Positions 10,257-12,573 of a DNA stretch of 33,633 nt are shown here, piece after piece. The position numbers were made by a program, and so were the translations under genes. Position 1 is the first letter of the stretch. Every line of letters starts with the position of its first letter. The notes beneath the pieces were generated by a model. It was given only the letters and a program-made list of their open reading frames with translations. It was not told the DNA's origin and ran no database searches. The DNA lies in assembly GCA_031278715.1 (NCBI GenBank), contig JAITJW010000103.1:1-33633 (forward strand). The letters run 5' to 3'. This stretch comes from Treponema sp. GTDB lineage: Bacteria; Spirochaetota; Spirochaetia; Treponematales; Breznakiellaceae.

Positions 10257-11303
10257 GTGCCCAAAGAAACAAAGCCCCTGCCGCCGGAACAGTACCTGGG
10301 GCCGGAAAAAAAGCCGAACGAAGATGACAGTACGCTGCGCCCCCGGAATTTGGGGGAATTCCTGGGACAGAAAAGTATCAAGGAAAATCTGGCGGTTTTT
10401 ATTGCCGCCGCCCGGGAACGGGGAGAAAATCTGGATCACCTTTTTCTTACCGGCCCCCCCGGATTGGGAAAAACTACCCTGGCCCAGGTCGTGGCCAATG
10501 AACTTGATGCCGAATTTGTCCAGACCTCCGCCCCGGCCCTGGATAAACCGAAAGATCTCATCGGGATTCTTACCAATCTGGAGCGGAACGATGTCTTTTT
10601 TATCGACGAGATACACCGGCTTAAGCCCGCTATTGAAGAAATGCTCTACATCGCTATGGAGGACTATAAGATCGACTGCGTTATCGGTCAGGGGCCGGGT
10701 GCGCGGACCCTGCAGCTTCCCATTCAGCCTTTTACGCTTGTGGGGGCGACTACGAAGGCGGGGAATGTTTCCGGTCCTCTGATAAGCCGTTTTGGTATTA
10801 CCTGCCGTTTTTCGTTTTACGAAGAGGAGGATATGGAGGCCATTGTACGGCGTTCAGCGGGGATACTGGGCATCGGCGTTAATCCCGATGCCGCCGTCCT
10901 GCTCTCCCGTTCCGCACGGGGGACTCCCCGGATACTCAACCGGCTGCTCCGGCGGATGAGGGACTTCGCCCAGTTTCAGGGACAGCCCGTCATTACCCGG
11001 CAGCTGGTGGAGGAGAGTCTTACGCGTCTGGAGATCGACGTCCTGGGACTTGAGAAGTACGACCGGGAGATTCTGCGGATCATCATTGAACGCTACGGCG
11101 GTGGTCCGGTGGGGGCGGATACTCTGGCCATCAGCATCGGTGAATCATCGGACACCTTGGAGGATTACTACGAGCCCTATCTAATCCAGGCGGGGCTTCT
11201 GCGGCGGACCTCCCGTGGCCGGACAGTTACTCCCCTGGCCTATGAGCATCTGGGATTACGGAACGGGGGAGACCGGGAGAATGGGCAGGATGGCCTGTTC
11301 TAA
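10257..11303 (+). CDS. ruvB: Holliday junction DNA helicase ATPase RuvB
   Basis: AAA+ hexameric motor for branch migration, 348 residues from GTG 10257. Walker A GPPGLGKTTL, Walker B FFIDEIHRL, sensor 1 GATTKAG and the C-terminal winged helix (GLEKYDREILRII onward, ending LRRTSRGRTVTP) are all present. GTG 10257 has GGAG 11 bases upstream and yields the usual length; the longer frame from 10149 would overlap ruvA by 80 bases. The last codons (GLF-stop) lie in a 19-bp tandem duplication that extends to the queA start. Confidence 0.96.
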   Translation: MPKETKPLPPEQYLGPEKKPNEDDSTLRPRNLGEFLGQKSIKENLAVFIAAARERGENLDHLFLTGPPGLGKTTLAQVVANELDAEFVQTSAPALDKPKDLIGILTNLERNDVFFIDEIHRLKPAIEEMLYIAMEDYKIDCVIGQGPGARTLQLPIQPFTLVGATTKAGNVSGPLISRFGITCRFSFYEEEDMEAIVRRSAGILGIGVNPDAAVLLSRSARGTPRILNRLLRRMRDFAQFQGQPVITRQLVEESLTRLEIDVLGLEKYDREILRIIIERYGGGPVGADTLAISIGESSDTLEDYYEPYLIQAGLLRRTSRGRTVTPLAYEHLGLRNGGDRENGQDGLF

Positions 11304-11327
11304 AACACATGGTCTGTTCTAAAACAC
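11291..11327 (+). repeat. 19-bp tandem duplication at the ruvB-queA junction
   Basis: TGGCCTGTTCTAAAACAC (11291-11308) is repeated as TGGTCTGTTCTAAAACAC (11310-11327), period 19, one mismatch. The first copy contains the ruvB stop; the second ends just before the GTG of queA. It places an ATG at 11309 that opens a seven-codon frame ending TGA at 11330-11332, overlapping the queA GTG as GTGA. Confidence 0.85.
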
Positions 11328-11328
11328 C

Positions 11329-12573
11329 GTGAAACTTTCAGATTTTTATTTTGATCTTCCCGAATCCCTTATCGCCCAATATCCCAGCCCCCGGCGGGAC
11401 CAATCCCGGCTTATGGTCCTGGATCGTTCAAGCGGCCGCCGGGAACACCACGTTGTATCCGAACTGCCGGCGCTTCTGGACCCCGGTTCCCTGCTGGTGT
11501 TTAACAATTCCAGGGTCCGCAAGGCCCGGCTTTCCGGCCGGTCCCTGGCTACCGGCGCGGAAGTGGAATTTCTGCTGCTGGAAAAAACGGGGAACGCGGC
11601 AGGGCCGCCCGGTCGTACCGGAGGGCCTGCAGAAGCTCCCGACGGTACCTTGTGGCGCGCCATGGTCCGGCGGGCCCGCCGCCGGCGGCCGGGGAGCCGC
11701 TATGCCTTTGCCGGCGGCGTTGAAGCGGACATAGCGGGGGAAGACGGGGAATTCAGGGTCCTCCGCTTTGACCGGCCTATTGACGATGACTGGCTGGACC
11801 GTTACGGTCATGTCCCCCTGCCGCCCTATATCAGACGGGGGGACGATGATCTTGACGGCGAGCGGTACCAGACCATCTACGCCCGGGAAACAGGTTCCGC
11901 CGCGGCCCCCACCGCGGGGCTTCACTTTAGCCCCGAACTGTTTGGATCCCTTGCGGAAGCGGGAATCGAGAGCGTCTTCATTACCCTTCACGTAGGGCTG
12001 GGGACATTTCTCCCGGTACGCACGGAAAACATCGAAGACCACCCTATGCATCGGGAGAACTATACGATTGACGGGGAGACCGCTTCCCGGATTGAAAAAG
12101 CCAAGGCGGAGGGCCGAAAAATCGTGGCGGTAGGTACCACCAGCGTCCGTACCCTGGAATCCGCATGGATCCCCGCTGCCGCGCCGCTGCCGGGAGGAAC
12201 CCTGAACCGGGGGGAGGGGAGTACCGCCGTGTTCATCTACCCCGGTTACCGCTTCAAGGTGGTGGATCAGCTTTTTACCAACTTCCACACCCCCGGCTCC
12301 AGCCTGCTCATGCTGGTATCGGCTTTCGCCGATGCTTTCGCCGATGCTTTCGCCGATGCTTTTACTGGTACTTTCAGTGGTGTGTTCACTGGTACTCCTC
12401 TTGCCGGTACTTTCAGCGACGCTTGTACCGGGACCTCCCCCGAAACGGGCGCCGGAATTTTTGACGGAGCAAGATCCCTTGCAGGCCGGGATCTTATCCT
12501 GGAAAGCTACGCCGAGGCGATTCGGGAGGGGTACCGTTTTTTTAGTTATGGGGACGCCATGCTGATACGCTAA
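11329..12573 (+). CDS. queA: S-adenosylmethionine:tRNA ribosyltransferase-isomerase QueA with inserted repeats
   Basis: Transfers and isomerises the ribosyl group of SAM onto preQ1 in tRNA to give epoxyqueuosine, the penultimate queuosine step. Family landmarks are SDFYFDLPESLIAQYP at the start, HVPLPPYI, QTIYARETGSAAAPTAGLHF, FITLHVGLGTF, TNFHTPGSSLLMLVSAFA and YRFFSYGDAMLI at the end. At 414 residues it is longer than E. coli QueA (356). Most of the excess is a 51-residue insert (12331-12483) between SAFA and GRDLIL, which are contiguous in ordinary QueA; a smaller Gly/Pro-rich insert lies near residues 87-105. Start is GTG 11329 with no clear ribosome site. Because the reading frame and all core motifs survive, I expect an active enzyme. 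Confidence 0.95.
   Translation: MKLSDFYFDLPESLIAQYPSPRRDQSRLMVLDRSSGRREHHVVSELPALLDPGSLLVFNNSRVRKARLSGRSLATGAEVEFLLLEKTGNAAGPPGRTGGPAEAPDGTLWRAMVRRARRRRPGSRYAFAGGVEADIAGEDGEFRVLRFDRPIDDDWLDRYGHVPLPPYIRRGDDDLDGERYQTIYARETGSAAAPTAGLHFSPELFGSLAEAGIESVFITLHVGLGTFLPVRTENIEDHPMHRENYTIDGETASRIEKAKAEGRKIVAVGTTSVRTLESAWIPAAAPLPGGTLNRGEGSTAVFIYPGYRFKVVDQLFTNFHTPGSSLLMLVSAFADAFADAFADAFTGTFSGVFTGTPLAGTFSDACTGTSPETGAGIFDGARSLAGRDLILESYAEAIREGYRFFSYGDAMLIR
12322..12363 (+). repeat. 12-bp minisatellite inside queA
   Basis: Three perfect copies of GCTTTCGCCGAT (12322-12333, 12334-12345, 12346-12357) and a partial fourth, encoding A-F-A-D repeats. Downstream to about 12430 the sequence degrades into related units coding T-G-T-F-S and T-G-T-P. 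The unit is a multiple of three, so copy-number change keeps the frame. Confidence 0.95.

Follow-up and report, generated by a model that had tools for sequence, protein, structure and literature searches.

The queA gene of this window, a 33,633-nucleotide contig of a Treponema species, raises the question of how a conserved tRNA-modification enzyme came to carry a long run of additional residues ahead of its last helix, and whether such an enzyme still works. The gene lies directly 3' of ruvB, which it adjoins, and forms a single open frame (Table 1); the stretch from the end of ruvB into the queA leader (window positions 11290–11327) holds a direct tandem duplication of 19 bp (ATGGCCTGTTCTAAAACAC type, 94%). 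Its product scores above the cut-offs of all three curated QueA profile models (NF001140, 416 bits against 324; TIGR00113, 360 against 267; PF02547, 414 against 25), and the family-invariant residues are kept on both sides of the additional segment, TNFH.P.S.L before it and Y..A and FFS.GDAM after it. An AlphaFold2 model built from a 43-sequence input reached a pTM of 0.85, with pLDDT above 90 over most of the core. Its best matches in the PDB were 1vky, 1yy3 and 1wdi (E ≤1e-28; TM-score normalised by target, 0.62–0.71), and solved QueA structures were the only convincing fold matches. A search for a QueA structure with bound SAM or tRNA found none.

Several observations indicate that the gene is maintained. 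Outside the loop, comparison with the nearest congener gave dN 0.062 and dS 0.429, so the core is under purifying selection, and the resulting dN/dS of ∼0.14 suggests a catalytically functional QueA. The source genome also encodes Tgt and QueH (L240, G000:C133:18432-18968), an alternative epoxyqueuosine reductase, so that both kinds of pathway partner expected for QueA, Tgt and an epoxyqueuosine reductase, are present; QueG was not detected in this 84%-complete assembly. A decaying pseudogene was therefore rejected on the strength of the single open frame, the purifying selection and the pathway partners. The earlier note had described the frame and downstream motifs as intact and had set a non-functional gene against its own reading; the first description holds, and the sequence evidence speaks for a working gene.

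The extent of the additional segment was defined by alignment to solved homologues. In QueA of T. maritima (1VKY) and B. subtilis (1YY3) the equivalent of SAFA runs uninterrupted into GK/GR, whereas the window protein aligns with them up to residue 334 (SAFA) and resumes at 383/384. Thus, the expectation that ordinary QueA passes straight from SAFA to GRD was borne out, and the insert, put at about 51 residues in the earlier note, measures exactly 51 codons. The protein shares its whole catalytic core, flanking motifs and predicted fold with QueA (TIGR00113, NF001140, PF02547; 1VKY, 1YY3, 1WDI), and differs from 1VKY and 1YY3 by these residues, which fall in the turn that precedes the final helix. 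In the model, insert residues 347–378 have pLDDT below 50 and are flanked by helices at 325–335 and 385–399, so the prediction is of a disordered insert linking two helices, with the QueA fold itself intact. Together with purifying selection and the pathway partners, this placement makes it most likely that the enzyme works and that the insert forms a flexible loop on it.

Table 1. Features of the queA locus (window coordinates).
Feature	Position	Strand	Basis and remarks
queA, tRNA preQ1(34) S-adenosylmethionine ribosyltransferase-isomerase	11329..12573	+	414 aa, GTG start at 11329, stop ending at 12573; profile models and alignment
In-frame insert, 51 codons, between SAFA and GRD	12331..12483	+	Residues 335-385 if placed after SAFA; alignment and model
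Perfect 12-bp array, 3.4 copies of GCTTTCGCCGAT (AFAD)	12322..12362	+	Tandem Repeats Finder; begins on conserved AFA codons
Decayed 12-bp units of TFTG/TFSG/VFTG/TFSD type	12359..12420	+	Repeat finder, self-similarity, sequence
21-bp match to another gene, reverse strand	12421..12441	+	Identical to G000:C84:8519-8539 in the same genome, E 8e-4
8-bp inverted repeat, AAGATCCC / GGGATCTT	12471..12495 (12471-12478, 12488-12495)	+	Spans the 3' end of the insert

Internally, the insert shows a 12-bp period. The perfect array (period 12, 100% match) has a Tandem Repeats Finder score of 82, the highest in the window, and is followed by a weaker period-12 array at 12359–12396 (65% match); one of the decayed units seems to have been lengthened (ACTCCTCTTGCCGGT). 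Self-match of the insert at lag 12 was 0.54 compared with 0.32 in codon shuffles, and after removal of the perfect units it was still 0.45 against 0.30; none of 1000 shuffles reached the observed value in either case. The array thus resembles a coding minisatellite in having units longer than those of a microsatellite and a periodicity significant over shuffles. Units can be recognized over between about one half and two thirds of the insert's length; its 3' third (∼12421–12483) is not visibly composed of them. The proposed gradient from perfect to degenerate 12-bp units therefore stands for the 3.4 perfect copies and the decayed units after them but does not clearly extend through this last stretch. 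At its start lies the 21-bp match, which within the insert comprises exactly seven codons, in frame; the other copy encodes LGGGPGTSTLAVEIY, which looks like an ABC-permease motif by its sequence. The stretch could be filler copied from that gene or a coincidence, and the inverted repeat at the 3' end may be due to chance.

Loop expansion is not special to this queA copy. Matches to queA were found in five of six congeners, with loops at the SAFA|GRD junction of +8 (STGPGPGA), +12 (GTKAGAAAGQKT), +17 (SANASANAGAFAGAEPG), 0 and 0 residues. These differences agree with the earlier proposal of in-frame 12-bp slippage in a working gene whose length varies among near relatives, and are the opposite of the same insert at the same length recurring in distant spirochaetes. 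We extended the census to 149 spirochaete queA sequences, 142 from the same family (Breznakiellaceae) and 7 from neighboring families of the order, using genome assemblies that include many MAGs, one per species, and a motif search able to recognize frame-intact copies alone. An insert of 1–51 residues was present at the junction in 41 of the 149 (20 with +8, 21 with other lengths) and absent from 108, the non-insert state being that of about three quarters of family members. The window insert is the longest of all, and its array is one of the freshest examples of loop growth. When the loop was left out of tree building, parsimony called for at least 17 switches between having an insert of five or more residues and having none, a count in which gains and losses are inseparable; many forks of the tree are weak. 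One genome, G204, has two queA copies (L065, L073) on different contigs; the copy on contig C241 groups with genus g52, not g70, and that contig is therefore probably mis-binned.

Outside the family the junction is much quieter. Every one of the matches listed for the order's other families continues past the junction with no added residues, and of 72 loci parsed from a wider collection, mostly from other phyla, 66 have no insert and the one with +12 is again one of the congeners. Five Verrucomicrobiota sequences (L188, L196, L202, L212, L214) carry +6 or +7 residues (APNETRG type) at the same junction, which therefore tolerates insertion in other lineages too; so wide a range of lengths was seen solely in the family of the window.

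The same 12-base step is evident in the relatives. With the window removed, no other loop of QueA varies as much in length as SAFA|GRD (sd 5.7), and of its 35 non-zero lengths 20 are divisible by four, the figures for the remaining main variable loops being 4/37, 9/64 and 3/44; relatedness inflates these counts, alike for every loop, and they are not independent because the +8 class partly reflects shared ancestry (one deep clade). The other strongly length-variable loops in the family, at window residues 51–52, 85–105 and 280–288, lack a four-residue step, and a minor variable site at residues 185–186 has +8 in eight sequences. In the 38 inserts of at least eight residues from other species, analyzed with the window excluded, self-similarity was found at just two of the codon lags tested, which ran up to 30: lag 12 (p 0.005) and lag 24 (reached by 0 of 1000 shuffles). 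Lengths that are not divisible by four (1, 5, 9, 10, 11, 13, 17, 18, 19, 21, 22, 26 and 51) indicate that other insertions, deletions or filler occur as well. A further case comes from a separate clade (nucleotide identity 92–95%), in which three sequences ∼95% identical outside the loop (L065, L090 and L099) have a GCN-TTY-GCN-GNN unit three times, twice and once, respectively. Their loops read AFAA-AFAA-AFAG, AFAA-AFTG and AFAG and align as clean 12-bp and 24-bp gaps; what is repeated is the coding sequence of the conserved AFAG motif.

Taken together, these results are best explained by a functional QueA whose tolerant SAFA|GRD loop has grown repeatedly by in-frame tandem duplication, mainly in 12-bp steps, followed by decay through point mutation, a reading to which we assign a probability of roughly 0.85. 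The seed would be the stretch coding for the conserved AFAG motif (GCN TTY GCN GRN), and the unit would be copied by replication slippage or unequal exchange, of which we favor slippage as the molecular step. The loop would form the turn of the C-terminal helix-turn-helix junction and tolerate added length, and the enzyme would survive growth because 12-base steps keep the frame, each adding one AFAG-like unit. Point mutation would then scramble the older copies, and the loops left behind, 8 to 51 residues long, would be unstructured and rich in glycine and alanine. Loop length is presumably selectively neutral, and the change may be continuing within the source species.

An insert that recurs at one junction in one family might instead be a functional peptide or a fixed accessory domain, such as an extension that binds tRNA or a partner and was selected in treponemes of the termite gut. 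The +8 class, with glycine at the fifth residue in 13 of 20 sequences, does keep a partial glycine phase, and the short Verrucomicrobiota version could be read in the same way. However, both length and sequence differ among congeners, a variation on which the fixed domain was rejected, and among species that are 92–95% identical; in addition, most of the family does without the insert and the segment is predicted to be disordered, making this reading unlikely. Since frame-keeping 12-bp steps alter copy number between near relatives, and change is fast in a translation-related enzyme, a contingency-type switch was also considered, in which copy number tunes QueA activity and hence queuosine at the tRNA wobble base. 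The differences are known between species, from one genome per species, and arrays of this in-frame kind are plentiful in unrelated genes of the same genome, which indicates a general mutational process; we consider such a switch highly improbable, and we found no sign of phase variation, of a mobile element or of regulation. A further reading, in our view very unlikely, is that the AFAG turn is a self-seeding insertion hotspot whose length is heritable, changes fast and tunes queuosine modification in termite-gut spirochaetes.

Rickettsia palindromic elements, which are inserted in-frame in protein genes, provide a precedent for an additional in-frame peptide in a housekeeping protein, and a mobile or palindromic element with repeats added later could account for the inverted repeat at the 3' edge of the insert and for the 21 bp identical to another gene. 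Yet a search of the 84%-complete assembly found no dispersed copies: the insert as a whole is single-copy, the ground on which this candidate was rejected, and elsewhere only the 21-bp piece matches. Moreover, unlike the Rickettsia elements, the insert is tandem rather than palindromic and has no shared element sequence; the relatives' inserts show the 12-bp period in place of a common sequence, and the array begins on the host gene's own AFA codons. An element origin is accordingly extremely unlikely. The fragmented, incomplete assembly might raise suspicion of an artefact, but the perfect part is just 41 bp, below ordinary read length, the frame holds over 153 bp, and independent assemblies of relatives behave alike at the same site, so this explanation is barely credible. 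In-frame tandem duplication in a tolerant loop is thus the reading we retain.

In-frame repeat growth is not confined to queA. Twenty contig stretches from outside the window (227 kb of the same genome) contained ∼14 tandem arrays scoring above the queA array, nearly all in long open frames, so in-frame repeat growth is general in this genome and the idea that the queA locus is unique in this respect was rejected. Large in-frame tandem repeats occur in other genes at L242:7166-7381 (36-bp units), L260:8835-9090 (54-bp units), L249:8232-8371 (54-bp units) and L241:17338-17411 (18-bp units). In-frame coding minisatellites (VNTRs) of bacteria are known mainly from surface and repeat proteins. The queA array resembles them in its short unit, a multiple of three, in its perfect-to-decayed copies and in its length variation among relatives, and differs in lying in a loop of a single-copy tRNA-modification enzyme and in its recurrent origin at a single junction in different members of a family. 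Literature titles and abstracts yielded no paper on QueA repeat expansion and none on repeats within coding sequences of termite treponemes.

Judging from isolate names, the source organism is probably from the termite gut, with which we take its family to be associated. The case is a clear but basically ordinary instance of slippage at a repeat within a protein loop that tolerates it; what is distinctive is how well the length series is resolved at a single junction in a conserved enzyme. It offers a well-sampled natural series, from 0 to 51 residues across dozens of species, that shows a loop of a conserved enzyme lengthening through tandem duplication and later decaying while the seed motif can still be recognized. 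The series is useful for models of protein indel evolution and for testing how much loop length is tolerated, and its importance would be greater if it were true that loop length alters queuosine levels.
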